Shown here one piece after another: positions 1-48,374 of a stretch of 64,000 nucleotides of DNA. The DNA lies in the NCBI GenBank assembly GCA_008729055.1, contig SDUX01000004.1:2418001-2482000 (forward strand), read 5' to 3'. The position numbers and the translations under genes are program-made. Position 1 is the first letter of the stretch. Each line of letters opens with the position of its first letter. The notes under the pieces are model-generated. The model searched no databases and had not been told where the DNA came from. It saw nothing but the letters and a program-made list of their open reading frames with translations. The DNA comes from Pyropia haitanensis (Eukaryota; Rhodophyta; Bangiophyceae; Bangiales; Bangiaceae).

Positions 1-516
1 GATCCCCCACTGGCGGGTCGGCGGGGCGGGTGGGCGGCTGCGTCACTGGCCGCGGCCGCCGCGGGCGCGCCTGTGGGTGTTGGTGGGGGGGGTGGGGGAA
101 GGCGTCTGGCGCGGCGGCCGCTCGCGTGCACGCGGGCGGCGGCGCGCCCGGTGGGCGGGGGTGGGTGGGCGGGGGGGGGGGGGGGTTGAAGAGCGGCGCC
201 GCGTGTGGCGCCGCGCTCTTGGGCAGGGGGGGTGGCAGCCCCCCACCGCCGGCGCCGTCTGCTCCGCCTACCCCCCCCCCCCCAGGCCAGGCGGTGGTGT
301 CATCGCGTCGGCCGCCGCTCTGGTCACCTCCCCCGTGCCTGTTGGATAGCCGCGTGCGGCTGTTGTCATTGTGCAACGCCGGGGCCCGTGCCGCCAGTGT
401 GGGAGTGCGGCGCGCCGCCGCGCCGGTGGCAGTCGCCCCGCCGCCCGTCCCCACCCGCCGTCCCCCCCAGCCGGGCTGCTGCGCGTTGGGCGCCCACGTT
501 GGCGGCGGCCGGCGCG
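1..516 (+). other. 5' leader / promoter side of the NADPH oxidase gene
   Basis: No ATG-initiated coding region with recognisable similarity is present upstream of 517. A run of 13 C at 271-283 followed by AG (284-285) looks like a polypyrimidine tract plus 3' splice acceptor, the same form as the confirmed acceptors of the CHLH gene in this window, so a 5' UTR intron may end at 285. The reading frame stays open from 205 into the gene, but the translation there is Arg/Pro/Gly-rich and unlike any oxidase N terminus. Confidence 0.35.
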
Positions 517-15519: not shown

Positions 15520-17628
15520 TCACTCGGCCGCGTGCTCTTGCAGAGCCGCAAAAAAACGGCGCCCCCGGCGGACAGCGCCCCAGGGCATCGCCCCCCCCTT
15601 GTACTCGGCGAGCAGCAGTGTCACCATCTCGGCGGGATCCTCCTGGGTTGCGACCGCCCCGGTCACGTCCTGGGCGACTGCCACGGGAATGACGGCGGCG
15701 GCAAGGTCCGCCGCCTGGTCGGCGGTGAAGCCAGTCCCAACAAACGCTACAAACGCGGCGGCAACCTCGGCAGCAGTCGCCGTCGGAGAAACGGATGGAA
15801 TGACTGCAACGGGGGAGACGGTCAGCAACGCGGGGGTCTCCACTGGCGGCGTGGCCTCAACAGGAAGGGCGGAAGACGGACGTGACGCCCTCGGTGTTGA
15901 CTTGGCCGACGCTCGGGCCGGAGGTCCCGCCCCACTCGTGCCCGCCGACGCTGAAGCCGACACTTCCGCCGGCGCTGCAGCCGGCACAACCGCCAGTCCA
16001 GAACGTCGCAGAGAACGCTTGCTGGCCATCGCAAGGCCTCCCCTCTTCGCGGCAAAGGCCATGCCCTCAGACCGCCGGCGCTTATTCGCAGACAGCGGGG
16101 ACCCCCCGCGCCACCCCCCGTCGCCGCCGCGCCCCTCACGTGCAACGTCACCCCCCCGCGGCGGCATCTGCGGCCAGTCCTCCTGCAGCCGCCGCGCGAG
16201 CTTGAGGTGCCCTGACCTCCGTGCGGCGCGGCGCGCGTCGCGCAACATCGAAGGACGAACCGCGGCGCCGCCCGCCGCTTCCAGCAGCACTTCAACGGTG
16301 GAAGCGTGGCCCTCGGCGGCGGCCTCGCTCAACGCCGTCACCCGCGCCGCGCTGCCGTCCACGCCACTCGCCGCTGCCGTAGCGTGCACGTTGGCGCCCG
16401 CGTCGAGCAGCCACCGTACGGCGGCGGTGTTGCCCTCGGCGGCTGAAAGCATGAGCGGGGTCTTACCGCCCGTAACGTCGCCGGCACCTCCGTCGGCCGG
16501 CACTTTCGCCGCCAGCAACACCCGCAGCACGGCGTCTGAGTTATGTTCGGCCGCCACGTGCAGGGCCGTGTGGGTCGAACGATAGGCGCCTGTGGGCGGC
16601 AGCCGCTGGCAGGGAACAGCCTGGCCAGTCGCCACGAGCAACTTGGCAATGGGGCCGTGCCCGACAAGCGATGCCAACATGAGCGGCGTCCATCCGTCGG
16701 ACCGGCGCCTCCCCGGCGCTGCACCAGCGTCCAAGAGCTTCCGAACGACACAAATATGACCATTATGGCTTGCAATAGAGAGCGGCGTCGAGCCATCGTT
16801 GATGGCAGCGTCAACAGCCGCGTTAGCGTCCAGCAGCGCAGTAACCACGTCCTCAGCGCCCACTTCCGCGGCCATATACAGGCTGGTAAAGCCCCCGCGT
16901 CGCTTCGCATTGACGTTCGCGTGGTACTTGAGGAGTTCGTGCACAACTGCTACACGTCCTTCGGAGGCGGCCACTATGAGAGGCGTCCACCCGCCATCGG
17001 CGATGGCATCGACGGCCGCACCGGCACGAAGTAAACACCGGCACATGGTCACGTGACCTTCATAGGCCTCCAGATGGAGCGCCGTCCAGCCATCACAGCG
17101 GACGGCGTTGACATTCGCTTCGCGTGCAACCAGTAGCTCCTCCACTCGGCGCTTCTTGCTCATGGCTGCGAGCAACAGCGGGGTGTATCCATCCCTGTCG
17201 ACGGCCTCAATGTCCGCACCCGCATCGAGCAGCAGTGCCACTGACCGCTCGTCACCAGATGCCACAGCCAGTCGTAGCGGTGTTTCCCCGCATTCCGTTC
17301 GTACGTTTACGTCCGCCTTTTCCTTGACCAACAGCCGGGCGGCGGTGAAGTAACCACCAGCCACCGCGACGCACAGCGGGGTGAACCCGTCCAGGCGCGG
17401 AGCATCAACCGCCGCGCCGGCTCGGAGGAGGACGTCGGTGATGGACACCCGGTTGTGGTCCACCGCCACATGAAGAGCAGTCGCCCCGTTGACGCCCAGG
17501 GGCGCTGTCAGCAGCAAGTCGGCGGTCGTGTTGAGCAAGTCCACCACCCGGGCTGTGTCCGCCGCGCGGCAGGCTCGGTAGAACACGTGCGAGGCGTCAC
17601 TTGCGGAGGAACGTAGCGTGGTAGGCAT
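15520..17628 (-). CDS. Ankyrin-repeat protein
   Basis: Predicted 702 aa from the ATG at 17628 (MPTTLRSS). The frame stays open upstream to 17889 but that part is Arg/Pro-rich and likely leader. About 12 ankyrin repeats run from residue 48 to about 470, each with the G-x-TPL/TAL-x-A core and a terminal GA/N-x-DA loop. The repeat block is followed by a basic stretch with two nuclear-localisation-like clusters (NKRRR and KRSLRRSG) and an Ala/Pro/Val-rich tail ending in FFAALQEHAAE. No catalytic domain is seen, so it is probably a scaffold or nuclear adaptor; the partner is unknown. The gene is intronless, on the same strand as the hydrolase gene 0.5 kb upstream. Confidence 0.85.
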   Translation of the reverse strand: MPTTLRSSASDASHVFYRACRAADTARVVDLLNTTADLLLTAPLGVNGATALHVAVDHNRVSITDVLLRAGAAVDAPRLDGFTPLCVAVAGGYFTAARLLVKEKADVNVRTECGETPLRLAVASGDERSVALLLDAGADIEAVDRDGYTPLLLAAMSKKRRVEELLVAREANVNAVRCDGWTALHLEAYEGHVTMCRCLLRAGAAVDAIADGGWTPLIVAASEGRVAVVHELLKYHANVNAKRRGGFTSLYMAAEVGAEDVVTALLDANAAVDAAINDGSTPLSIASHNGHICVVRKLLDAGAAPGRRRSDGWTPLMLASLVGHGPIAKLLVATGQAVPCQRLPPTGAYRSTHTALHVAAEHNSDAVLRVLLAAKVPADGGAGDVTGGKTPLMLSAAEGNTAAVRWLLDAGANVHATAAASGVDGSAARVTALSEAAAEGHASTVEVLLEAAGGAAVRPSMLRDARRAARRSGHLKLARRLQEDWPQMPPRGGDVAREGRGGDGGWRGGSPLSANKRRRSEGMAFAAKRGGLAMASKRSLRRSGLAVVPAAAPAEVSASASAGTSGAGPPARASAKSTPRASRPSSALPVEATPPVETPALLTVSPVAVIPSVSPTATAAEVAAAFVAFVGTGFTADQAADLAAAVIPVAVAQDVTGAVATQEDPAEMVTLLLAEYKGGAMPWGAVRRGRRFFAALQEHAAE

Positions 17629-18171
17629 GGTGGCAATCGAGAGGGGGGGGAACACAAGCGCTGCCCACCGCCGGCGACGGCGGGGCCGCCCCCGCCGTCG
17701 CTGGGGAGGGGCAACAGGTGTGCCTATCGAGCGCGCGGGCAGCCCGACGCGGTGGTCCGCGGGCTGTGGTCGAGGCTCGCACCTACTTCTCATGAGCCAC
17801 CTCGCAGGAAGACCACAGGGCAGCGCGTGGCCTTTCAGGATGCACACAGACGAAGCGTGATTGTGCTCAAGCACAGGTCTGTGGATCATGGAAATGTAAT
17901 TGATACGGAATTGCTGTAGTTAAACGGGCGCGGCCGTCATACGGCTGACGCGGCAGCCTTGCGGAGACCCGACGCTGGCCGAGGGTTGAAGCGACGGGGT
18001 GTCAGAGAAGCAACGAAAAAGATGCAGGCGAGGTCAGGAAGAAAGAAACAGGAGCACACCGCAACCTGAGAAGCAAAAAGTCGTATCTGAGAAGGTGCTC
18101 TCCGAGCGGGTGGGCCGGCCGTCTCTTCCCAGACAGAGACATCCAGCACGTGCGCCGGGCAAGGAAGCCCC
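17629..18171. other. Intergenic region
   Basis: Promoter side of the ankyrin gene and 3' UTR of the hydrolase gene, both on the minus strand. No further gene or RNA was recognised. Confidence 0.5.
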
Positions 18172-32659: not shown

Positions 32660-34196
32660 GCCGCCGTCGCCGCCACCGTGGCGGCGCTGCCAGCCGCCGC
32701 GGGTGGGCGGGCAGGGCCGGCGCGGGGGGCGGCCGCCGCCGCCGCACCACCCCGCGTCGCCGCGGCAACGCGGCCGCAGCGCCGCCTTGCCCGCCCTCCC
32801 CGCCGTTGTTGGCGGCTGCCTGCCGGCCCGCCGCGGCCGCCGCCGCCCGCCGCCGCCCGCCGCCGCCGCCGCCGCCGCGACGGGACACGACCGCGTGGGA
32901 GTGGCAGCGCCGCCGGCGCGGGGCCGGGCGGGCTGGGGTGGGGTGTGGTGGGGTGGGGTGGTGGGTGTGGGGCGGTGGGGGGGCGGAGGGGGGGGGGGAG
33001 GAGGGGGAGCGCCCGGGGATGCCGGCGCCGAGACGCGCGCGCGGGTGCCGACGCGGGGCGGCGCGGCAGACGCCCGCGGGGGGTGGGTCGGCCCTGCGCA
33101 GCGGGGGCGACAGCCGGTACCCGTAGAATCGGCCGATTCGACCTGTGCTGGTCTGTCTGTTTGGCTCCTGCACGTGGGTCTGCAACGTGGCCACCAGAGC
33201 CCCAGAACGCGGGTGCTCGCGTTCCTGTACCACACGCCCAGCGCAGGCGGGCTCGGCCCTCTGAAGGGGAAGTTCCGGCGACTCCCCGCGTTTGGAACCG
33301 AGCATGAGAACCACCTCGTCGAGGTACGTGCGAAGCTTTTCTTTTTTTTGCCGGTGGAACCCTTGTCCGATACAACCGCTTTCCAGTCTTGGACCCTGCA
33401 CAAGAGCACGTTTCCGAGCAGGGTTTGCACTCCCACGGTGCACGACGTGTTGTTGATCAAGTGTTGCATGCACCCGAGAAGTGTGTTTGAATGCGTGCCG
33501 CCGTGCACCAGACTTTGTGCAGTCGTGCAGTGCCATGCAGCAGAGTTTGGGACTGGAAATGTGAATGATGAGGTTTCGAAAGTATGTAGCGCACCACCAA
33601 TACTTTCAAAGACCATGGCGTAGTTTTTCTGACGATGACTGCTTTCCTAACTATTTCAACCCGTGTGTGTTGGTGCCACCATCGTTCGTCGTCGTTCGCG
33701 ACTCGGCCTGCTCAACGGTGGTACCATGATCAGCTCCAGTTTGTCAAGGAGTGGTGGGCCGGTCTGGTTGGCCAAGCGGGAGCGGCTGGCCGCGCTGGCT
33801 TGGGCCTTGCCAAGAGGAGGCTGCGTTGCGTCTCGCCATGTGCGGAAGGCGCCAATGCGCTGTCGCGCCCGCCACGCGCGGCCCGTCTGTCGGTGGGGCG
33901 TCCCCGCGCGCGGCGGGCTTGTGTGGGCGGCTGCGGTGGACGCCTCGTTGATGTGATTGGCGTGGGGGACCCCGCCGCGTTGCGGCGCGCCGGCTGGTGC
34001 ATCTGCCACTCGTGGGGCGTCGCGACTGCCGGGGGTCGCTCCATCCTGCGGGTCGCCGTCTGGGCCTGGCCGTCGGCGGGGAAGCCGCGCACGCGACGAC
34101 GCGGGCCACGGGGCGGCGGCGTCGAGCGCACCTTGGCGGATCGTGGACGCGGGGCGCCCTTGCGCCGCCCGCGTGGGGTGCTCCCAGCGCCTTCCA
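32553..34196. other. Divergent intergenic region between RING and NLR-like genes
   Basis: 32553-33120 is GC low complexity. 33120-33640 has a balanced composition and probably holds promoter sequence for the NLR-like gene. A 14-nt perfect palindrome GAATCGGCCGATTC sits at 33125-33138. The + frame is open from an ATG at 33635 to the gene, but its translation ends in a poly-Phe run encoded by the T tract and looks non-coding. Confidence 0.45.
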
Positions 34197-34240
34197 TTTT
34201 TTTTTTTTTTTTTTTTGTTGCTTCTGGGGCCATTGTCAGG
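34197..34240 (+). other. T20 polypyrimidine tract and probable 3' splice acceptor
   Basis: 20 T at 34197-34216, then TTGCTTCTGG and CATTGTCAG ending at 34239, one base before the ATG at 34241. This is a textbook polypyrimidine tract plus CAG acceptor, suggesting that a leader intron ends here and that 34241 is the true start. Confidence 0.5.
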
Positions 34241-37200
34241 ATGCGCCGGCATGCGCGCCGCGCGCACGCCGCCGTCGGCGGCGCGCCCAGTACGCTGCGG
34301 GCTGGGCGGCGGAGCTACGGCCTCCCTGACGACGGTGACAAGGACGGGTGGCGGGCGATGCTGCTCCCATATGCGGGGCGCCTCCAGCTGGTTGACGCCC
34401 CCAGCCACCGCTGCAAGGCCGTGCGCGTCGCCAAGCGGGTGCTTCACGGCGGCGCGCGGCCTCATGCGCCGGTCGACGTGTGGCTCCATTGCGGGCTGTA
34501 CTACCGGGACGCGGCGGGCGGTGACGCGGAGCCCGTGCCGGGGCAGCCGCTGCCGACGGCGAACGGCGCCCGGCGGGGCTGGCGCTTTTTTCCGCTGCCC
34601 CGTGACGCGCCCGACGGGACGCGGTCCTTTGACGTGCGGGTGGAGCCCGGCGGGGGCGGCCAGGCGGGCACCCGTACGGGGGCGGGGTGGGTGATCTGCC
34701 TGGTGTCCATGGTGGAGCAGCCTGCCAATCCCCGTGTCGAGTTTGTGGCGGCGACAAAGGAGGTGGCGGACGAGTGGGCGCGCCAGATTGCACTGCGTGC
34801 GGCACCGCTGTCACTGGTCTGGCAGCGGGTGCTCGCCGGAGGTGGGGAGGGGGAGGGCAGCACGGCGGGTTCCTCTGCGCGGCCGCGGGTCGGCCGGGTG
34901 CGGGCGCTTGCCGACGCGGTCGCCTCCTTTTTTGATTCCGATGTCCCCACGGCGGTGGCGGGGGTCACTACGGCCGTCCTCTGTGGCGGGATCTTTGATG
35001 CGGTCATGTCTGCGGGTCCGTGTGTGGCGTTTGTCGTTGGGACGTTGTCAATGGCCGTGCGCGTTTGTACCGCGACTGCAGCCTTGGGGGGCGTTGCCGA
35101 GGACCTGCGTCGCGAGGTTGGGTGCCTGCTTGAGACGCTACGCTCGCACCTGCTACCAGCCATTGTCTGCTGCCGAGCGGCGGGGTCGGCCAATGCGGCG
35201 GCGCTGCTGGCTGAGGTGGGCGTCGTAGCTGGCGCTCTGGACACCGTCACCGGGAAGCTGTTCCACCTTTCTCTGTCACTGGGCGCTCGCCTGCACCAAG
35301 CGCTGTCTGCGCGTGGGGAGGCCGAGGCGTTGGCGCTGGTGGAGGAGGTCACATTGTGCAAGGCAGCGGTGGCGGATCTCAGGCAAAACATCCACTTGAA
35401 TCTGACCTTCGTCAGTATGAAACTGGCGGCCGAGAACAGAGAGCAGACGGTGGCTGCCGCAAGGGACGTGCAATCGCGGGCACTGACAGACGCGCGGGAG
35501 TGGCTGGCTGTGCCCGCCGTTTCTGGCCCGATCGTTGCCCAGTGGGATGACGCCCACGCGGATCAGCCGTGGTGCCGGCTGCTGCAGGTGGTGCTACGCG
35601 AGCCGCCGCCGTCGGCAGCAGGCACGTCCGCGTGTATTGTCTGCGCGAGCGGGATGGCGGGCGTCGGCAAGACGACGGTGTCACAGCTGGTGGCTGCGCG
35701 CGTGGCTGCCGAGGGCGTGCGCTACCCTGACGGCGTGTACTGGGTAAGCCTCGGCCAAGGGGTGACCGAGGAGCGAGCCGCCAAGTACATGATGGCGGTG
35801 ACTACCTGTGTCACGCGACGGGAGGTGCCGGCGCCGTCCATTGTCGTAGCTGCTGCTCGGCTACGACACGCGCTGGAGGGAAAGGGCGCCTTGATTGTCG
35901 TAGACGACTGCTGGGATGACGAGCTGGCGAAGCACTTTGTGAGCGCCGTGGGGGGGGGGCGCAGCAGTCTGCTCTTCACCACTCGGTCGGATCTCGTTGC
36001 CCGTCGCTCTTCCCCCGGCTGCCTTGTGCACATTGGGACGGTGCAAGGGCAGTGCGCGACGGACATGCTGCTCGCGTATGCACGCCTCGGCAAGTCTCGG
36101 CAGCCGCCCGACAACCAGGACGAGGAGCGCGCGCTGGTCAAGCTACTGCATGCGGCGGCGGGGCTGCCGTTGGCTTTGGCGGTGCTAGGCTCGTTGGTGT
36201 GTGCCAAGGGGTGGACGTCCGCGGCCGAGCAGTTGGACAGGGCGCTTTGTCTCGAGCGGTCTCCCACCGGCGGCTCGTTGTGGGCTTGCTTCATGGCCAG
36301 TTACCGCCAGCTGTGTGCTGATTGCACGGAGGACAATTTGCACGCGCGTCTTTTCAGGGCGCTCTGTGTTGTTGGCAAACAAGAGTGGCTGCCTTTGTCG
36401 GCGCTGTCGGTTTTGTGGGGAATGGATTCGGGGGACGCTGAGCATCATCTGCACATTATTGCGCGCTACGCGCTCGCAACCGTGCGGGAAGAAGCTGGCT
36501 TGGTGGTGGTGGGCCTCCACGACCTCATCGTCGACTGGGTGCGTGGCAGGCTAGTGCCGCTGTCGGTGGATCGTCAGCACTACCACGCGGCGCTGGTGAA
36601 TGGCTACGGGACCCGTCTGGGGGGTGAGCAGCAGATCGTACCGAGCGAGGGAGACGCTATGCGTTGCCGGCCGTGGTGGAATCTACCCGCCGACGGTTAC
36701 ATGAAAGAAGCGCTGTGCCGCCACCTACACGCAGGTGGGCCTCGGTTGCAGGAGGAGCTGTTGTCGCTACTGTTGGACCTTGAGTGGATTGTCTGGCGCG
36801 TCCACCGCCACGGCAACACGGCGGTGGGCTACCGTGCGGATTGCCGAGTGTCTGGAGTGCCCCTGGTGATGCGCGTCGCCACCGTGGTTGAGGGGGCCCT
36901 CGTCACGGCAGCCGACCTCCAATATCCCGCCAAACGGGTGACGGCGTTCGACCTTGCTGCGCGACTGCCTGCAGTCACTTTGACTGATGCCGTTGAACGC
37001 TTTCATGTCGGTCGGCTAGTAGATGCTGCCCGCACATGCCAGCAGCCTCCGGCGGTGGAGCTGCTCCGAGCTGGGACATTGCCTTTTCCGCAAGAGGAGG
37101 CCATTCTGCACGGCCATGAAGGCCCCGTGACGTGCAGCTGCACGCTGCGGGGAGCCAACGGCTGTGCTCTTCTGGTGACTGGGTCGGAGGACAAGACGCT

Positions 37201-39586
37201 TCGGGTGTGGGACGTGGAGAGCAGGGAGTGTGCGCGGGTGCTCGAGGGTCACATGTACTGGGCGGTATGCTTGTGTGTGGTAGTGGGCAGAGTCGGAGAC
37301 AGGAATGGAGGTGGGGCGGGTGTGCAGCGGGTTGTGTCCGGGTCAATAGACATGACACTGCGGGTATGGAACGTGGACACTGGGGAGTGTCTACGGGTTA
37401 TGGGGGGCCACACTGATTGGGTCAAGTGCGTGTGTGCGGTGGAGGTCGGCGAAGTCGGTGGCGGCGGTCAAGGCGGGACGGATGTGCAGCGGGTCGTGTC
37501 CGGCTCGGACGACAAGACGCTGCGAGTTTGGGACGTGGACTCTGGGGAGTGCGTGCGGGTGCTGGAGGGTCACACGGGCTGGGTGTTATGCGTGTGTACG
37601 GTGAAGATGGGCAGAGTCGGCGGCGGGGGTGGAGGCGGGGCGGGTGCGCAGCGGGTCGTGTCCGGTTCGGACGACAAGACACTGCGGGTGTGGGACGTGG
37701 ACACTGGGGAGTGTTTACGGGTGCTGGAGGGTCACACGGGCTTTGTGAGGTGCGTGTGTGTGGTGAAGGATGGTGGAGTTGGTGGCGGTGGTGGAGGCGG
37801 GACAAGTGTGGAGCGGGTCGTGTCCGGTTCGAAGGACAAGACACTGCGGGTGTGGGACGTGGACACCGGGGAGTGCGTGCGAGTGCTGGAGGGTCACACG
37901 GGCTGGGTGTCGTGTGTGAGTGTGGTGGAGGTTGGCGGCCTCTCGGGTAGGGCTGCAGGCCGGGCGAGTGTGGAGCGGGTCGTGTCCGGGTCGTTCGACA
38001 AGACGGTGCGGGTGTGGGACGTGGTCAGCGGGGAGTGTGTGCAGGTGCTGGAGGGTCATAAGCACTTTGTGTCGTGCGTGTCAGCCGTGAAGGTGGGCGG
38101 GGATGGTGGCGGGGGTGGAGGCGGTGCGGGTATGCGGCGGGTTGTGTCCGGTTCGGATGACAAGACGGTGCGAGTGTGGGATGTGGATACCGGGCAATGT
38201 CTGCGGGTTCTGGAGGGCCACACGGACGATGTGGTGTGCGTGTGTGTAGTGCAGGTGGGTGGAGTCGGTGGTGGGGGTAGTAGTGGTGCGGGTGCGCTGT
38301 TTGTCACGTCCGGGTCGGTCGACAAGACGGTGCGACTTTGGGACGTCGCCACCGGCGGGGTTGCGCGGGTGCTGGAGGGTCACACAGAGATGGTGTTGTG
38401 CTTGTGTACGGTGAAGGTGGGCGGAGTCGGGGGCGGGGGTGGAGGCGGGGCGGGTGCGCAGCGGGTGGTGTCCGGTTCGGACGACCAGACACTGCGGGTG
38501 TGGGACGTGGATAGCGGGGAGTGTTTACGGGTGCTGGAGGGTCACACGGACTGTGTACCGTGCGTGTGTGTGGTGAAGATGGGCAGAGTCGGTGGCCGGG
38601 GTGCAGGCGGGACAAGTGTGGAGCGGGTCGTGTCCGGTTCGGACGACAAGACGCTGCGAGTTTGGGACGTGGACACCGGGGAGTGCGTGCGAGTGCTGGA
38701 GGGTCACACGGGCTGGGTGTCGTGTGTGAGTGTGGTGGAGGTTGGCGGCGTTGGTGCGGGGAGCGGAGGCGGGACGAGTGTGGAGCGGGTCGTGTCCGGT
38801 TCGGACGACCAGACACTGCGGGTGTGGGACGTGGATAGCGGGGAGTGTTTACGGGTGCTGGAGGGTCACACGGCGTTGGTATTGTGCGTGTGTGTGGTGA
38901 AGGTGGGCAGAGTCGGTGGCCGGGGTGCAGGCGGGGCGGGCTTGGAGCGCGTCGTGTCCGGTTCGGACGACAAGACGCTGCGAGTTTGGGACGTGGACAC
39001 CGGGGAGTGCGTGCGAGTGCTGGAGGGTCACACGGGCTGGGTGTCGTGTGTGAGTGTGGTGGAGGTTGGCGGCGTTGGTGCGGGGAGCGGAGGCGGGACG
39101 AGTGTGGAGCGGGTCGTGTCCGGGTCGAAGGACAAGACACTGCGGGTGTGGGACGTGGACACTGGGGAGTGTTTACGGGTGCTGGAGGGTCACACGGCGT
39201 TGGTGTTGTGCGTGTGTGTGGTGAAGGTGGGCAGAGTCGGTGGCGGGGGTGGACGCGGGGCGGGTGCGCAGCGGATCGTGTCCGGGTCCGAGGACAAGAC
39301 ACTGCGTGTGTGGGACGTCGCGGCGAGTGATGCGGATGCGGCCGTCGCTGTGGTTCCCTTGCCGCACCTTGTTGCGCGGCTGGAGCCTGTCCACGATCAG
39401 GCTGGGGTGCTGTTTGCAGTGTGTCACACGGGGGCCGTCTGGCATGTCGCCCTGGGCACGCCCGAGCGGGTGCGCCCGGTGGTGACCTCGCTTCGGGTTA
39501 CCGCGCTGTGCGTCGTGGATGCGGGCCGCGTCGCGGCTGGCTGCGCAGACGGCGGGGTGCACGTGGCGCGCGCGACGCTTCCCTAG
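34241..39586 (+). CDS. NLR-like STAND protein: PH-like + helical bundle + NB-ARC + 14 WD40
   Basis: Predicted 1781 aa. Residues about 35-190 have a PH-like pattern ending in the typical amphipathic helix with Trp (KEVADEWARQI). Residues about 230-420 are an all-helical region (hydrophobic AVMSAGPCVAFVVGTLSMAV, then long helices) resembling the MLKL/HeLo/RPW8-type four-helix bundles used as cell-death executors. The NB-ARC ATPase is complete: P-loop GMAGVGKTT (471-479), kinase-2 LIVVDDCWD (551-559), RNBS-B LLFTTRS (about 577), GLPLAL (641-646) and an MHD-equivalent LHD (759-761). Fourteen WD40 repeats of 54 residues follow (about 980-1695), then a degenerate blade. STAND proteins of this form oligomerise on ligand binding; the WD40 part is the sensor and the N terminus the effector. 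It is predicted to act in non-self or danger sensing. The coding frame is uninterrupted. Confidence 0.88.
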   Translation: MRRHARRAHAAVGGAPSTLRAGRRSYGLPDDGDKDGWRAMLLPYAGRLQLVDAPSHRCKAVRVAKRVLHGGARPHAPVDVWLHCGLYYRDAAGGDAEPVPGQPLPTANGARRGWRFFPLPRDAPDGTRSFDVRVEPGGGGQAGTRTGAGWVICLVSMVEQPANPRVEFVAATKEVADEWARQIALRAAPLSLVWQRVLAGGGEGEGSTAGSSARPRVGRVRALADAVASFFDSDVPTAVAGVTTAVLCGGIFDAVMSAGPCVAFVVGTLSMAVRVCTATAALGGVAEDLRREVGCLLETLRSHLLPAIVCCRAAGSANAAALLAEVGVVAGALDTVTGKLFHLSLSLGARLHQALSARGEAEALALVEEVTLCKAAVADLRQNIHLNLTFVSMKLAAENREQTVAAARDVQSRALTDAREWLAVPAVSGPIVAQWDDAHADQPWCRLLQVVLREPPPSAAGTSACIVCASGMAGVGKTTVSQLVAARVAAEGVRYPDGVYWVSLGQGVTEERAAKYMMAVTTCVTRREVPAPSIVVAAARLRHALEGKGALIVVDDCWDDELAKHFVSAVGGGRSSLLFTTRSDLVARRSSPGCLVHIGTVQGQCATDMLLAYARLGKSRQPPDNQDEERALVKLLHAAAGLPLALAVLGSLVCAKGWTSAAEQLDRALCLERSPTGGSLWACFMASYRQLCADCTEDNLHARLFRALCVVGKQEWLPLSALSVLWGMDSGDAEHHLHIIARYALATVREEAGLVVVGLHDLIVDWVRGRLVPLSVDRQHYHAALVNGYGTRLGGEQQIVPSEGDAMRCRPWWNLPADGYMKEALCRHLHAGGPRLQEELLSLLLDLEWIVWRVHRHGNTAVGYRADCRVSGVPLVMRVATVVEGALVTAADLQYPAKRVTAFDLAARLPAVTLTDAVERFHVGRLVDAARTCQQPPAVELLRAGTLPFPQEEAILHGHEGPVTCSCTLRGANGCALLVTGSEDKTLRVWDVESRECARVLEGHMYWAVCLCVVVGRVGDRNGGGAGVQRVVSGSIDMTLRVWNVDTGECLRVMGGHTDWVKCVCAVEVGEVGGGGQGGTDVQRVVSGSDDKTLRVWDVDSGECVRVLEGHTGWVLCVCTVKMGRVGGGGGGGAGAQRVVSGSDDKTLRVWDVDTGECLRVLEGHTGFVRCVCVVKDGGVGGGGGGGTSVERVVSGSKDKTLRVWDVDTGECVRVLEGHTGWVSCVSVVEVGGLSGRAAGRASVERVVSGSFDKTVRVWDVVSGECVQVLEGHKHFVSCVSAVKVGGDGGGGGGGAGMRRVVSGSDDKTVRVWDVDTGQCLRVLEGHTDDVVCVCVVQVGGVGGGGSSGAGALFVTSGSVDKTVRLWDVATGGVARVLEGHTEMVLCLCTVKVGGVGGGGGGGAGAQRVVSGSDDQTLRVWDVDSGECLRVLEGHTDCVPCVCVVKMGRVGGRGAGGTSVERVVSGSDDKTLRVWDVDTGECVRVLEGHTGWVSCVSVVEVGGVGAGSGGGTSVERVVSGSDDQTLRVWDVDSGECLRVLEGHTALVLCVCVVKVGRVGGRGAGGAGLERVVSGSDDKTLRVWDVDTGECVRVLEGHTGWVSCVSVVEVGGVGAGSGGGTSVERVVSGSKDKTLRVWDVDTGECLRVLEGHTALVLCVCVVKVGRVGGGGGRGAGAQRIVSGSEDKTLRVWDVAASDADAAVAVVPLPHLVARLEPVHDQAGVLFAVCHTGAVWHVALGTPERVRPVVTSLRVTALCVVDAGRVAAGCADGGVHVARATLP
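37181..39325 (+). repeat. WD40 array: 14 tandem 162-nt units
   Basis: Units are spaced by exactly 162 nt where measured (37491, 37653, 37815, 37977), which is 54 codons. The consensus is SGS-x-D-KTLRVWDVDTGEC-x-RVLEGH followed by a variable four- to five-residue segment and a Gly-rich loop. Units starting near 38641 and 38965 are essentially identical over about 160 nt, 324 nt apart, showing a recent two-unit duplication. Variation concentrates just after GH and at the residue after SGS. Confidence 0.92.
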
Positions 39587-39700
39587 GCGTGCGCGCGCGA
39601 CGCTTCCCTCGGCGTGCGCGCGCGACGCTTCCCTAGGCGTGCGCGCGCGACGCTTCCCTCGGCGTGCGCGCGCTACGCTTCCCTCGGCGTGCGCGCGCGC
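39571..39700 (+). repeat. 25-nt minisatellite overlapping the NLR-like stop codon
   Basis: The motif GACGCTTCCCT-A/C-GGCGTGCGCGC recurs at 39574, 39599, 39624, 39649 and 39674, five units of exactly 25 nt. The first unit supplies the last codons and the TAG stop of the NLR-like gene. Units alternate A and C at the base that makes TAG. Confidence 0.9.
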
Positions 39701-41395: not shown

Positions 41396-43091
41396 TTACC
41401 CCGCCCCCGGCGGCTCCCCCCCCCCCCCAACCCCCTCCAGCACCGCGTCCACCGACCCGTACTCGTCGCGCAGCCGGTCGAGCATCCCCGCCGGCGGGTC
41501 GGCCCACAGGCCGCGGCCGGCGCCCTCGAGCAGCCGCCCAACCACGTTGCGGTACGCGGCGGGGTTGGCCCGCACCAGCGCCGCCCGGTTGGCCTCGTCC
41601 TCCACGTACAGGCCGACCATCTGGGGGGGGGGGGTGGGGGGGGAGGGAAGGGGGCGGCCACACACAAAGGAGATGAAGAGAGAGTGAGACGAGGGGAGGG
41701 GCAAAGGGGGGGGGGAGTGGGTGGTAGCGGCCGTGATGGGGGGCGGCGCAGGGCGGTTAGTCTACTGCCATCCCTCGCCAGGCGCTATGGCAAGATTACG
41801 CCAGAATGGACACCGCAGCCGCACCCCCCCCCCCCCCCCCCCAACCCCCCCCTCAACCCCCCCCCCCTCAACCCCCCCTCAATCAACCCCCCCTCAATCA
41901 ACCCCCCCTCAACCCCCCCTCAATAAACGCCTCCTCAACCCCCCCTCAATCATCCCCCCCCCCCCCCCCCGCCCCCCGCACACGCGCCGTCCCAGCCGAC
42001 GCGTCGATCACGACGCGCGCGCCGCCACCCCCCCCCCCCCCCCCCCCACGCACCTGCTCGTACACAAAGCTGTCGCCAAACCCGACGGCGCCGCCCCAGC
42101 CGACCAGCGCCGTCGCGCGGGTGGACACCTCGTACGCCCCCCCCGGCCCCGCGGCGAGCATCGCGGCCGCCCACGCCGGGTTGAGCAGCTTGGCCCGGTA
42201 CTCGGTGCGGAGGAGGTCGTCGAGCGGCGTCAGCGCCCGGTTGGCCAGCCGCCCGCCCGCGGCGGTGACGGGCGCGCCGACCGCCTCGACGATCGACGCG
42301 GTCACCGCCGCCGCGGCGGCGGGCGTCGGCTTGGCCGCCCGCGCCGCGTTGACGAGCGCGCCCGTGTTGGCGTGGTACTCTTGGATGTCTGGTCGTCGGC
42401 GCGGGGAGGGGTAGAAGGGGGGGGGGGGGGTGGGGGGGGAGGAGAGGGCGCGTGCGCGTCGCGGCAGGAGCGGACGCCGGGGACGAGCGCGCAGGAGCAA
42501 CGAGGCGGGCGCGCGCAGGGCAGGCAGCGACACGGATCGACGGTTAGCACCGGCACGCGACGCACGCGTCACACCCCGCACCACACACACGGCGCGAGGC
42601 CACACGGAAAGGGCGCCAGCGACCCCACACCCCCAGCCACCCCCCCCCCGCGCCAACTCCCCACCAACAACCACCCCCCCCCGCCCCCCCACGCCCCCTT
42701 CCCCCTCCCCGTCGCGCCCCCTCCCCCCCCCCACCCCCCCCCACCCCCCCCACCCCCACCGCGGCGCCGCCGCACGTACCCGTCAGCCCATACTCGACGC
42801 TGTCCACCTGCTGCACGACCGCCTCGGTGGTGCGGAGGAGCGCGTCGAGGGCGGGCCGCGCGGGCGCGCCGCGGACGCCGCGCCCCCACGCGTACGCGTT
42901 GCGGGCGGCAAACGCGGCGCCGAGCTCCGCGCCCGCCTCCCAGCTCCCGTCCGCCACCCGCTCCGCGACGCCGCTGCCGTACGACTCGGGCGGGTTGGAA
43001 AAGATCCGCGCCGCCGCCGCGTCGACCGCGGCGGCGGCCGCGGCGGCGCCGTCGCGGCGGCCGCCGCCGCCGCCGCCGTCGCCGTCGACGA

Positions 43092-43130
<39 letters not shown>

Positions 43131-43714
43131 TGGCGTCGGCGGCGCCACCGTCGGCGGCGACGCCGCCGACGCCGCCGATGCCGCCGTCGGCGGCGGCCGC
43201 CTCCAGCGCGTGGGCGCGGATAAAGTTGAGCGCCGGGTCCTCGTCGGCCGCCGCGGCGCGGCGGAACATGTCATCGAGCAGGTCCACCGTGTTGGCAAAC
43301 GTGTCCCTGCAGGTGGGGGGGGGGGGGGGGGGGGGGAGGGGCCGACCGGGAGCAACAAAGGGCACAAAAGTGGGCGAGGGGTGGCGGTGGGGGGGACGGG
43401 GTGGCCCGGGAGCCACGAACAAGAGGGGAGACGCAAGGAGGGAAAACGGCACCAGGGGGGGGGGCGGGGACAGAGACGAGACACAGACAGGCGTCAGCAT
43501 CGCAGTCGCAGCGGCGCGGCAGCCGACGCTGCCACGCAGCGGGGGCAGACAGGGAGGGGTGGCAGCCGCCGGCCCCCACGGTCGCCCCACCGCGGGCAAC
43601 CAAGAAGAGGCAGCACAGCCAAACGCAAACGCAAAAGAAACACAACAAAAAAAAAAACGCTCGGGGCACACGCGCCGCGCGCGCACCGGGCGCACGGCGG
43701 GCGCACCGCCCCGA

Positions 43715-43749
<35 letters not shown>

Positions 43750-44857
43750 CACACACCCACAGCACGCACCGAAAAATGCCCGACACGGACACGAGCACGT
43801 CCACCCGCGGCCGCCCGCCGAGCGCCGCCAGCGGCCGCAGCTCAAACCGCACCACCCGCCCCGTCGCGTCGCGGACAACGGCCGCGCCGGCGAGGCCCAG
43901 CACCAGGCCGACCGCCTCCCCCCGCGTCTTGATCGCGTCGAGCCCCCACAGCGGCACCGCCACCGTCTGCGGCGCCGCGCCGCCGTGCGCCGCCGCGTGC
44001 GCGCGGAGCACCTCGTCGGCGAGGGCGGCGCCCGCCGCGGCCGCCGCGGGTGACGGCAGCCGGTACGGGTCGAGGCTGTGGATGTTGCGGCCGGTGGGCA
44101 GCACGCTGGCGCCGTCGCGGAGGACGTCCCCGCCGGGCGCGGCGCGCACGTAGCCGCCGCGGAGGGTGGCGGAGAGGGCGTCCAGCTCGGTCGCCGTGCA
44201 CCGCAGCAGGTGGCCGACCGAGACGGCCGACGGGATGGCCGCGAGCGTCGGGGGGGGGAGGGCGGCCGCCCAGGCGGCCGCGTCAAAGGGGGGGGGGGCG
44301 GGGGGGACGCCCCCTGCCGTCCCCGCCGCCGCCACCGCCGCCGCCGCCGCCGCGGTCGCCGCGGTCGCCGCCGCCGGCGCACCATCGACCGCGCCGTCGG
44401 CGACGCCGCCGGCGACACTGGCGGCGGCGCCCCCCCCCCCCCCTCCGCCGCCACAACGTGCTCCGCAATCGCCGCGGCGAGCGCCGGGAGGGTCTCCCGC
44501 ACGAGCACGTCGCGGCACAGCCTCCCCCCCCCCCCCCCCCCCCCCGGCACGAGGTCCGCGTCCGTCGGCGGGAGCGACGCCGCCAGCAGCGGCGACAGGG
44601 TGCCCGCCAGCGCCGCCGCCGGCGGCGGGCGGCCAAACACGTGGAGCCCCACCGAGTAGAGGCGGTCGGCAACGACGGCCAGGCGGGCCGACAGCACGTT
44701 GGCCGCGTCGGCGAGCGCCGCCGCGGGCACCGCCGCGCCGCCCGCCGCGAGCGCCGCCCAGTCCACCGACGCGCGGGTGTCGGCGTCGAGGCCGGCGGCG
44801 GTGGCGGTGGCGACGACCGCCGCCAGCGCGGCCGTCACGGCGGGGGGATGGGGGGAT

Positions 44858-44889
<32 letters not shown>

Positions 44890-46828
44890 TGCCGCCGGTG
44901 CCGTCGCCAATGTCGCCGCCGCGGCCGCCGGCTCGTCGGCGGCGGGCGCAGAGGCGGCGTCGGTGGCGGCGGCGTCGGCGGCGGCGGCGGCGGCGGGGGC
45001 GGCGGTCGGGGCGTCACCCCCCTCCGCGGCGTCGGCCAGGGCGGCGCGCAGCGTGTCGAGCTGCGGCTTGAGCGCCGCGAGCTCCCGGTACAGCCCCGCC
45101 CGCCCCAGCGGCGGCACCCCGTGGCTGATGATGGTGGCGGCCGCACGGCGCTTGGCGAGCGCCGACTCGGCGGGGTTGTTGGCCGCGTAGATGTACGCGT
45201 TGGGCACGTTGCCCAGCAGCTTGTCGGGCCAGCAGTAGGGGCCCGCGCCGAGGGGGGAGCCGGGCAGCCACTCGTGCGTGCCGTGCATCCTGCAGAGGCG
45301 GGGGGGGGGGGGTGAGAGGCCGACAGAAAGAAAAGGGGGACAGACAGCAACAGCCAGGGGTCAGGGGGCGGGGGGCGGGAAACGACACAGAGCAGAGGAG
45401 GTCGGGGGGGGGGGGGGGGGGGGGGAGGAAGGCAAGAGCGAGCAGAGCGCGTGGCGGACAGGCCGGGGAGCAGAGCAGAGACAGCGGTGGCGTCACGTCG
45501 TTCAGTATGGGAGCACACACAACCACCACCCGCACCCGGCGGGCTGCAACCGCCGGTCACGGGCGGCGGCGGCAGCGGCCGCGGCGCGGCCAGCCGCCGC
45601 GAGCGCCGCGGCTGGCATCGCCGGCAGCGCCAGTCGCGGCAGACCCCCCCCCCCCGACACCGCGTCAAACCCGTGTCCGCCCGCGCCGGCACGGGGCGGC
45701 CGCGCCGCCGTCGCCGCCACCGACGTCGCCTTCCCCGCCCCCCCCCCCCCCCCCCCCCACCCCCGTGAGCGCGCGTGACGACCTACCCAAAGTGGATGAT
45801 CGCGTCCGCGCCGAGCTCCTCCTCCAGCCACCGGTACCACGCGCAGTACTGCGGGTGCGGCGCGGCGTCGCGCTCAAACATCAGCCGCATCGGGTCGCCC
45901 GGCACGCCCAGCGGCGGCTGCACGCCCACCCACACGTTGCCGACGCGGACGCCGCCGACCGGCAGGGCGCCGTCAAACGCGCGCGGCAGCGTCCACGCGG
46001 CGAGGTCGTCGCCCCACGCGGCGGTGACGCGGGCGGTGAGGACGGGGCCGAGCCACTCGCGGAGGGCGGCGGGCGTGACGAGGCCGCGGGCGCCCGCCAC
46101 GGGCGCCGCCGCCGCCCGCGACGTGCCGCCGCCGGCGGCGGTGCCGACCGCGTCGGCGGCGACGGCGGCGGCGACAAGGTCGGCGCCGCCGCGGGCGAGC
46201 GCGTCGCCCACGTCGTAGCCGTCGGCGGCGAGGCGGGTCAGCACCGCCTCGAGCGACCGCGGCACGTCGAGGAGCGCGGCGGTGCCCGCCGCGCCGGCGC
46301 CCGGCGGGAAGCCGTACAGCACGACCGCAACGACGCGGTCGGCGGGCGGCTTGGCCGCCGCCGCCAGCCGCGCGCGGAGGCGGCCGGTGAGGCGGGCGAG
46401 CCGGTCCGGCACGAGGAGGATGCGGTCGCCGACGAGGCCGCCGAGGACGACCGGGTCCACCGCCCCGTCCTGCTCGGGCAGCGCGTACAGCACCGCCGAC
46501 TGCAGGCCGCTGACGCCCGACCGCGTCCACGACGCCACGTCCTGGATGAGCAGCGGCGCGGCAATGACGTACGGCACGTCCAGGCGGGCGAGGATGGCCG
46601 CCGCCGCGTCGGGGGAGCGGCCGGCGGCCATGGAGCCGGCGGGGCCGCCGACCAGCGGGAAGCCAATCGTCGACACCACCGCGTCGACGGCGACCGCGCC
46701 GGGCCGGCGGCGGCGGCGGCGGCGGGCGGCGGCACGGCGGCGGGCGGCGGCCGCCGCGGCGCCGCCGCCGAGGAGCGACGACAGCCGGCCGACGGGCGAG
46801 GCGGCCGCGGCGGCCGCGGCGGCGGCCG

Positions 46829-46859
<31 letters not shown>

Positions 46860-48374
46860 CGCGTCGGCCGCGTCGGCGGCGGCCTCGGCGGCGGCGCTCG
46901 TCAGCTGGTCCCGCAGCACCATGTGCGCCTCGACGCCATTGATAAAGATGGGCAGCGGCGTCAGGCCGGCCGCCTCAAAGTGCGCGACCAGCCGGTCAAT
47001 GTAGGGCAGGCCCGACACGACGTGCTTGCGGTACAGCAGCACCGCCACGCGGGGGCGGCCCGCCCGGTCGGCGTGCGCCGCGGCGTGCCACGCCACGTAC
47101 TCGGCGGGGGTGCGGAAGTAGTGGCCGGGCCGGTCGGGGTGGACGAGGCCGGTCGCGGGGGCGGGGTCTGGCGGCGGGACCACCGCCGCCGCGCCCGCCG
47201 CCGGGTCACCGCCGCCGCCCAGCGGCGGCGGCAGCGACGGCGGCGGCGACGGCGGCGGCAGGCCGAGCACCTCGGTGGACAGGTAGGCGGCCATGGCGGC
47301 CACGTTGGCCACCCCCCCCGCGTTCCAGTACGCGTACACCGACAGCCAGTGGCGCAGGTCCCGCACCCGCCGGCCCGGGAGGAGGCGCAGCAGCCGGGGC
47401 CCGGCCTTGAGGAGCTGCAGGTACGCGGCGAGCTTGTCCTCCTCCCGCCCGAGCACCCCAAACTTTCGCAGCAGCCCCGCCACCGCCGGCGGCATGCCGC
47501 CGCGGCCGCCCCCGCCGGGCCGCCCGTCCGCGTCCGTGGCGGGCGCGGGTTCCCCCCCCCCCCCGCCCCCCCCCCCCCGTCCAGCACAAACGAGCCGACG
47601 CGCGTCAGCGCCATCAGCTCGAGGGCGCTCTCAAACACAAAGCGGGTGCGGACGCTGCCGAGCCGCCGCGCCAGCCACGCGACGTCGTCATAGTCAAAGA
47701 GGAGGCTGCCGAAAAAGACGTCCGCGGCGGCGAGGTCCGCCTCGAGCGCCGCCTGCCGCCCGCCCCGGATGTCCTCGTCCGTGTAGACGGCCAGCCGCAG
47801 GCGGGGCGCGGCGGCCGCCGCGGCGGCGACCGCGTCGGCGTAGAGGCCCGCGTTGAAGCGCTCAAAGCCCGTGACGAGCACGACGGTGTGGGTGGGGGGG
47901 GGGGGGGGTCCCCCCGCCCCGCCGCCGCCGCCACCGCGTCGGGCGCGGCCGCCACCGCCGGCACCGCCGCCGGCACCGCCGACGGCGCCGCCGACGGCGC
48001 CGCCGCCGACGGCGGCGACGGCGGCGGCGGCGGCGGCGATGGGGGCGGCGGCGGCACCGCCGCCGCCGCCGCCGCCGCCACCCCCACCCGCCGCCGCCGC
48101 GGCGCCGCCGCCGCAGCACCCCCCCCCCCCCCCGCCGCCACCCGCCGCCGCCGCCGTCGACGCGCGGCGGGGCGCCGCGGCGGCCCGCCGCCGCCGGCAG
48201 CGGCGTGCCGACAAACGGGCGCGCCGTGGCGGCGGCGGCGCGCCCGCCGCCGCCGCCACCGCCGCCGCGGACGCCGCGGACGCCGCCGCCGCCGCCGGGG
48301 AGGGCGCCGACAAAGGCGGCCGTCGGCGCCGCCGCCGCCGCCGCCGCCGCCGCGGCGGCCGCGGCGGGCGTCAT
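41396..48374 (-). CDS. CHLH: Magnesium chelatase subunit H (ChlH), spliced
   Basis: Large porphyrin-binding subunit of Mg-chelatase, which with ChlI and ChlD inserts Mg2+ into protoporphyrin IX in the plastid, the first committed step of chlorophyll synthesis. Coding blocks: 48374-45787, 45289-43770, 43306-42780, 42388-42054 and 41620-41396, joined in phase by four GT-AG introns. The first block holds a transit-peptide-like N terminus and is broken at C/G runs. Family hallmarks are unmistakable: HFG|MHGTHEWLPG across intron 1, YAANNPAESALAKRR, VLPTGRNIHSLDP, WGLDAIKTRGE, GRPRVDVLVSVSGIFR, IQEYHANTGAL, LLRTEYRAKLLNP, GAYEVSTR and LLEGAGRGLW. Two internal breaks (47552-47578, 44430-44443) are each cured by one extra G; with two more losses in the N-terminal tracts the length becomes a multiple of three, about 1732 aa. 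Typical ChlH is near 1380 aa; the excess is Ala/Gly-rich insertions. Confidence 0.9.
41621..42053 (-). other. CHLH intron 4 (433 nt)
   Basis: Donor GTGCGT at 42053, acceptor a C-rich tract plus CAG ending at 41621. It joins FVYEQ to MVGLYVEDEA. The intron contains imperfect tandem CCCCCCTCAAT/CAAC repeats at 41840-41960. Confidence 0.88.
42389..42779 (-). other. CHLH intron 3 (391 nt)
   Basis: Donor GTACGT at 42779, acceptor GACCAG ending at 42389. It joins VEYGLTG/D to IQEYHANTGAL with the codon split after its first base. Confidence 0.88.
43307..43769 (-). other. CHLH intron 2 (463 nt)
   Basis: Donor GTGCGT at 43769, acceptor CTGCAG ending at 43307. It joins SGIFR to DTFANTVDLLDD, the conserved ChlH order. 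Confidence 0.9.
45290..45786 (-). other. CHLH intron 1 (497 nt)
   Basis: Donor GTAGGT at 45786, acceptor CTGCAG ending at 45290. Splicing joins HFG to MHGTHEW exactly as in the ChlH family. Confidence 0.9.

Follow-up and report, generated by a model that had tools for sequence, protein, structure and literature searches.

A gene at positions 34241..39586 (+) of a 64,000-nucleotide window from the red alga Pyropia haitanensis (assembly GCA_008729055.1, contig SDUX01000004.1, positions 2,418,001 to 2,482,000; the genome comprises 52.9 Mb on 136 contigs, this one being C3) encodes 1781 amino acids plus a stop and probably specifies an intracellular ATPase receptor of the Apaf-1/NLR type, whose WD40 sensor has been diversified by the exchange of repeats and by selection at positions on its top face. 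The preliminary description of this DNA had read a PH-like segment, a helical segment, an NB-ARC ATPase, and 14 WD40 repeats in this one gene, and this layout (PH, helical region, NB-ARC with winged helix and HD2, 14 WD40 units) is confirmed. The protein has an Apaf-1-like switch fold and a PH fold, its WD40 units resemble one another within the gene, and amino-acid change is in excess at the top face. Such a receptor would bind a ligand, oligomerise, act at a membrane, and perhaps bring about cell death; its target might be a pathogen, a host protein under guard, or a conspecific individual.

The sensor is a tandem array of 14 WD40 units, the number originally claimed (residues 956–1693; 37106..39319, +; 162-nt period). 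Pfam recognises WD40 in 14 stretches (E 1.5e-99), and Tandem Repeats Finder (TRF) delimits an array at 37184–39318 with a period of 162, 13.2 copies, and 77% matches, the corresponding array of the paralogue L009 having 10.1 copies and 86% matches. Between receptor units, the mean amino-acid identity is 0.77 for the core and 0.72 for the whole unit, and the mean DNA identity is 0.79, with 0.957 for the best pair; in the relative P0018, unit identity is 0.82. For HNWD proteins, the mark is a likeness of more than 80% between the units of one gene. In a best-match test that left out unit positions 7, 9, and 37 and shared ties, the best match to a unit lay in its own gene for 13/13 units of the receptor, 13/13 of P0002, 12/12 of P0018, and 17/17 of P0020, less completely for L009 (10.8/11) and P0009 (8.2/10), and at low frequency for P0010 (4.6/12), P0008 (2.2/6), P0003 (1/3), and P0021 (0/3), the value for all genes being 81.8/100. 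Since P0002 (Porphyra umbilicalis BU14_0093s0020), which has the same architecture, is 50% identical to the receptor over its N-terminal half (98% of residues 1–930), the high-identity arrays are most simply read as homogenised within the gene.

The variation that persists between the units is concentrated at particular positions, entropy among the 14 receptor units being highest at positions 9, 7, 6, and 37. The top-face interaction residues of WD40 proteins are R1, R1-2, and D-1 (PMC3419727), and these were mapped via the GH and SGSxD motifs, rather than on a structure of the array, to positions 9, 7, and 37, respectively. Positions 6, 7, 9, and 37 had first been picked post hoc; the final set of 7, 9, and 37 follows the published definition. 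The proportion of nonsynonymous differences (pN) at these three positions, divided by the overall proportion of synonymous differences (pS), is 1.60 in the receptor (bootstrap over units 1.16–2.14; 11 full units) and 2.98 in L009 (2.09–4.43; 9 units), these ratios being based on counts from one genome, while pN/pS is 0.27 and 0.78, respectively, in the rest of the core and 0.53 and 0.96 over all sites. In the receptor, no position apart from those of the linker ranks above 7, 9, and 37 (permutation p 0.0001), and in L009 the same three show enrichment (p 0.00065). Neutral simulations with an equilibrium GC of 0.5, 0.7, or 0.85 gave mean ratios of 0.78, 1.08, and 1.18, a ratio of at least 1.60 arising 0, 1, and 0 times in 40 runs, and simulations at the pS of L009, started from the receptor units, reached 2.98 in 0/120 runs.

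The entropy test was applied to 12 genes in which five or more units could be recognised (P0011, P0003, P0019, and P0021 having too few, and P0004–P0006 being left out); it gave p < 0.01 in 11 of them, with ratios of entropy at the hot positions to the rest of 5.1–5.8 in P0001, P0018, and P0020 and 4.6 in P0002, the first unit of P0018 being read by the pattern out of register. However, a bacterial WD40 control with unlike units, P0017, also has a hot/rest ratio of 2.0 (p 0.006). Variability at the top face is therefore partly generic, so that entropy alone was dropped as a sign of selection and is kept as supporting evidence only, confined to homogeneous arrays.

Several other observations weigh, like this control, against diversification by exchange and selection. 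When pS is taken locally at the three codons (0.284 in the receptor, 0.391 in L009), the ratio in L009 falls to about 1.2, while that in the receptor, about 1.8, is still above 1.6. The pN/pS of L009 over all sites points to weak constraint, codon bias may depress pS, and the exchange of units breaks their independence. P0007 fails the entropy test (p 0.16), and the hot/rest ratio is just 1.4–2.8, about that of the bacterial control, in L009, P0007–P0010, and P0012–P0014. In P0008, P0010, and P0021, clustering of the units by gene is not seen. Finally, an Ulva mutant in an APAF1_C/WD40 gene, whose protein has no NB-ARC, is without phenotype (PMC8891106).

The switch that the sensor would control was claimed to be a complete NB-ARC, and this is borne out by a profile match far over the cut-off (71.7 bits versus a curated 23.5; E 7.2e-20, Pfam, whole protein) and by intact motifs. 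The domain itself occupies residues 466–667 (35636..36241, +; PF00931, E 9.2e-21), with the P-loop at 35651–35674, and is followed by a winged helix and an HD2-like helical arm (residues 668–939; 36242..37057, +) with an LHD motif at 36515–36523; the P-loop, the acidic Walker B, and the HD motif of the winged helix are invariant in 14/14 sequences. Residues 421–939 form an Apaf-1-type NB-ARC/winged-helix/HD2 module with the WD40 repeats after it, and Apaf-1 is the top structural match. At the level of profiles, APAF1_C and APAF-1-like_WHD are absent from the 9 Pfam families matched at E ≤ 10 by residues 420–944, and in L009 the winged-helix profile gives E 0.02, below the cut-off.

This resemblance to Apaf-1 leads to an alternative that we consider rather unlikely, namely, that the protein is a regulator of developmental or stress-induced cell death with an endogenous ligand, in which gene conversion maintains the likeness of WD40 units from a young tandem expansion, and constraint on the top face is relaxed. 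It would fit with the nearest fold being Apaf-1, with the caspase-like C14 peptidase profile found at seven places in the genome, with the variable top face of the bacterial WD40 protein, and with the overall pN/pS of L009 near 1. However, relaxation does not readily explain why pN at the three positions exceeds both the overall pS in two paralogues and the neutral simulations, nor why pN in the glycine-rich linker (0.243) is half of the value at positions 7, 9, and 37. Moreover, three paralogues of the TPR and trypsin-like types also have near-identical arrays (90–96%, TRF), which are reported to be enriched in fungal NLRs (PMC4986451).

At the N-terminus, the PH-like segment of the preliminary description corresponds to a PH fold in the structure model, with seven strands and a C-terminal helix (residues ~37–198; 34349..34834, +), predicted where Apaf-1 has its CARD. 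In residues 1–440, no Pfam-level PH match was found at E ≤ 10 and no CARD, nor indeed a family of any kind, at that threshold. The model then gives a helical region (residues 218–421; 34892..35503, +), with mean confidence per block (predicted local distance difference test, pLDDT) of 35–64 for residues 211–280 and 66–86 for residues 281–420. A helical segment had been claimed, and it stands; kinship with the MLKL/HeLo/RPW8 type is unproven. No such profile matched at E ≤ 10 in the four paralogous N-termini, and none of the five PDB chains matched by the N-terminus (E 0.1–3.1) is named MLKL, HeLo, or RPW8; as the fold of residues 218–421 was not searched alone, this lack of a match carries no weight. 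VIA rows to plant coiled-coil NLRs (CC-NLRs) that start at residues 259–299 have root-mean-square deviations of 14–29 Å and were not used.

Within the helical region, a hydrophobic stretch rich in Gly and Ala (residues 255–273; 35003..35059, +) is a candidate for contact with the membrane. Between residue 181 and the P-loop, the best 19-residue window has a Kyte–Doolittle mean of 1.71–2.29 in 17/17 relatives, values for which no background helices were compared, and this window nearly always falls within the stretch matching residues 255–273. Action of the N-terminus on membranes is what these features would suggest. The N-termini of the WD40 class and of the TPR class described below have no detectable sequence kinship (hhalign, probability 0.3%), and their shared layout is therefore no evidence of a shared origin.

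The claim of a red-algal genome agrees with the closest named relatives, which are in P. umbilicalis and Pyropia yezoensis. Besides P0002, relatives over residues 1–930 include P0007 (P. yezoensis) and proteins from ENA, lgn, and JGI, and a search begun from P0008 added P0018 (P. yezoensis); both protein searches scored the roughly 8,000 candidates sharing most words. The paralogues that the preliminary description proposed to look for exist: at least 13 NB-ARC places in the genome are over the cut-off, a lower bound obtained from 16 scored candidates. The receptor's own class has four places (the receptor gene, L009, L020, and L011, the last by its N-terminus). Five others have TPR units (L010 and L012–L015), and in L016–L019, a trypsin-like N-terminus precedes NB-ARC and TPR, a label given by eye and matching the same combination in PMC6928737; the frames of the first two groups were likewise read by eye. 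Behind the NB-ARC, TRF finds near-identical TPR arrays in L010 (1831–3863, 14.7 units, 96%), in L013 (779–3671, 21 units, 90%), and in L016 (5671–7587, 15.2 units, 93%).

Two members of the WD40 class are in a less orderly state. In L011 (4223–6573, −), the N-terminus, the P-loop, and the end of the NB-ARC lie in separate frames, owing to a pseudogene, introns, or sequence errors, and no WD40 array was noticed in frames read by eye. The short-read protein P0006, which is close to L009, has 1123 versus 1609 amino acids and far fewer units, and has the look of a short-read copy of it in which the array collapsed. The breaks in L011 and the perhaps collapsed array of P0006 would be expected if the receptor gene, too, were a pseudogene or an assembly artefact of tandem repeats, which is very improbable given its 1781 open codons, the signs of purifying constraint away from the hot spots (0.27 for the rest of the core), and the similarly built relatives in two named species.

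Red-algal NB-ARC-WD40 proteins are already on record, and the WD40 version is not the unexpected find as which it had been presented. In Chondrus crispus, NB-WD40 genes make up 58 of the 61 NB genes, and 23 of the 58 are said to include TIR (PMC7145615). P. yezoensis has genes for NB-ARC+WD40 (seven in Table 1), NB-ARC+TPR, and trypsin+NB-ARC+TPR, three of the seven NB-ARC+WD40 genes being up more than 1.5-fold on infection by the red-rot oomycete, and P. umbilicalis has NBS+WD40 (PMC6928737). Rhodophyte NB-ARC/WH/APAF1_C/WD40 proteins are shown in the Ulva study (PMC8891106). The class itself is thus not new, and the receptor's N-terminal half as well as its WD40 portion have counterparts in P. 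umbilicalis BU14_0093s0020 and in P. yezoensis I4F81_003904 and I4F81_005506. The published accounts, in their accessible parts, cover domains and expression without a PH/helical N-terminus or repeat diversification, neither of which was found for red algae in the literature searched, with most subscription journals and supplements falling outside it.

Apaf-1, Dark, and CED-4 share the NB-ARC, the winged helix, and the HD2 arm with the receptor, and WD40 repeats follow in Apaf-1 and Dark; the receptor differs from them in having a PH domain and a helical region where the CARD sits and in its near-identical, diversified WD40 units. Apaf-1 carries two propellers, and the 14 units, with the C-terminal tail added, would be compatible with a pair of seven blades each. 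Plant CC-NLRs (ZAR1, NRC2/3/4) have a similar NB-ARC and winged-helix fold (6j5t, RPP13-like protein 4, E 1.8e-8; we take 6j5t to be ZAR1), whereas the receptor has no leucine-rich repeats (LRRs), and its helical N-terminus is without demonstrated CC or RPW8 identity. A C-terminal LRR has little room, as WD40 fills residues 956–1693 and leaves 88 residues, and none appears among the best 25 of 43 Pfam families.

The architecture had also been likened to that of HET-E/HNWD in fungi. No HET domain was found in residues 1–440 (profile search, E ≤ 10), and NACHT has no match in the receptor protein and no place at E ≤ 0.001 across the genome, whereas the Podospora anserina proteins HET-D, HET-E, and HNWD have a HET domain and a NACHT NTPase; with an Apaf-1-type NB-ARC in place of the latter, membership of HNWD is ruled out. 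The parallel, which does not hold in the list of domains, is stronger in how the repeats evolve. The fungal units are highly conserved internally and alike within a gene (PMC1805685, PMC12222747), reactive HNWD alleles are predicted to encode double propellers (PMC12222747), and positive selection in the NWD genes acts at codons 7, 9, 25, and 27, which flank two conserved residues (PMC1805685). The excess change in the receptor at 7, 9, and D-1 corresponds, when matched by motif, to fungal codons 7, 9, and 25, three of the four. Fungal codon 27 (D+1), in contrast, is mostly K in the receptor (11/14 units), where unit position 6 is variable instead, and the receptor unit has 54 amino acids with a Gly-rich linker.

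It is in view of these corresponding codons, and of units alike within genes, that the gene might be one for allorecognition, separating self from non-self like het-d and het-e rather than sensing pathogens. We regard this as improbable, because P. yezoensis genes of the same class respond to an oomycete (PMC6928737), although the two uses are not exclusive. The receptor seems to be an Apaf-1-like, PH-headed NLR-type protein of red algae, with a WD40 sensor apparently diversifying at its contact residues.

As for the gene itself, its frame is open on the + strand from 33635 to 39586, the 1781 residues being counted from the ATG at 34241. This openness has no evidential value because the GC-rich DNA also keeps open an upstream low-complexity frame of 1812 amino acids, and reading-frame length was dropped as evidence for a gene. 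Directly 5′ of the ATG, a T-tract and CAG (34197..34240, +) read as a putative splice acceptor (AG at 34238–34239), through which an upstream exon may be joined. At the other end, the C-terminal tail and stop (39320..39586, +) may help to close the last propeller. A 25-bp tandem repeat (39566–39699, 5.4 copies, 95% matches) spans the stop codon.

Elsewhere in the window, a NADPH-oxidase-like frame (205–3366, +; Ferric_reduct, FAD_binding_8, NAD_binding_6) lies some 31 kb away from the receptor gene. An oxidative burst is a usual output of defence; the linkage may be due to chance. A protein of many ankyrin repeats (15520–17889, −; PF12796, E 4.5e-79) has no long-period DNA array according to TRF, unlike the WD40 gene. 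A magnesium chelatase H subunit (42544–47495, −) is split over two frames, possibly by introns, its top match being an incomplete protein of P. umbilicalis (53%, covering 38% of the query). Two TIR_2 domains are found in long open frames elsewhere in the genome (C7:2061189-2061545 and C10:3656915-3657286).

If the receptor is indeed diversified by exchange and selection, its operation might be pictured as follows. The WD40 units would fold into one or two propellers that constitute the sensor. Inside the gene, near-copies of a single 54-residue unit would spread and be replaced, and selection would favour new residues at three top-face contacts per blade, giving each gene a private, changeable binding surface. 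A ligand on the top faces would release the ADP-locked NB-ARC module, which would then exchange its nucleotide and build a wheel. Clustering could let the PH domains, together with the hydrophobic stretch, take the helical region to a membrane, with defence or cell death as the outcome. More tentatively, the system of the nori group could combine HET-D/E with a plant resistosome, namely, a PH-guided, membrane-acting helical effector, an Apaf-1-type wheel, and a WD40 sensor that repeat exchange continually rebuilds and that selection shapes at R1-2, R1, and D-1. Red algae and fungi would then either have arrived at the same route or have retained it, with the TPR and trypsin-like-TPR classes as parallel branches.

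What is known in some detail about how recognition surfaces keep changing without antibodies comes mainly from plants, animals, and fungi. The PH fold at the N-terminus of an NB-ARC receptor is a testable hint of membrane action, and the codons to be typed in wild and farmed nori can now be named. If the reading is true, one route for diversifying receptors works in very distant lineages, since red algae split from green plants before there were land plants.
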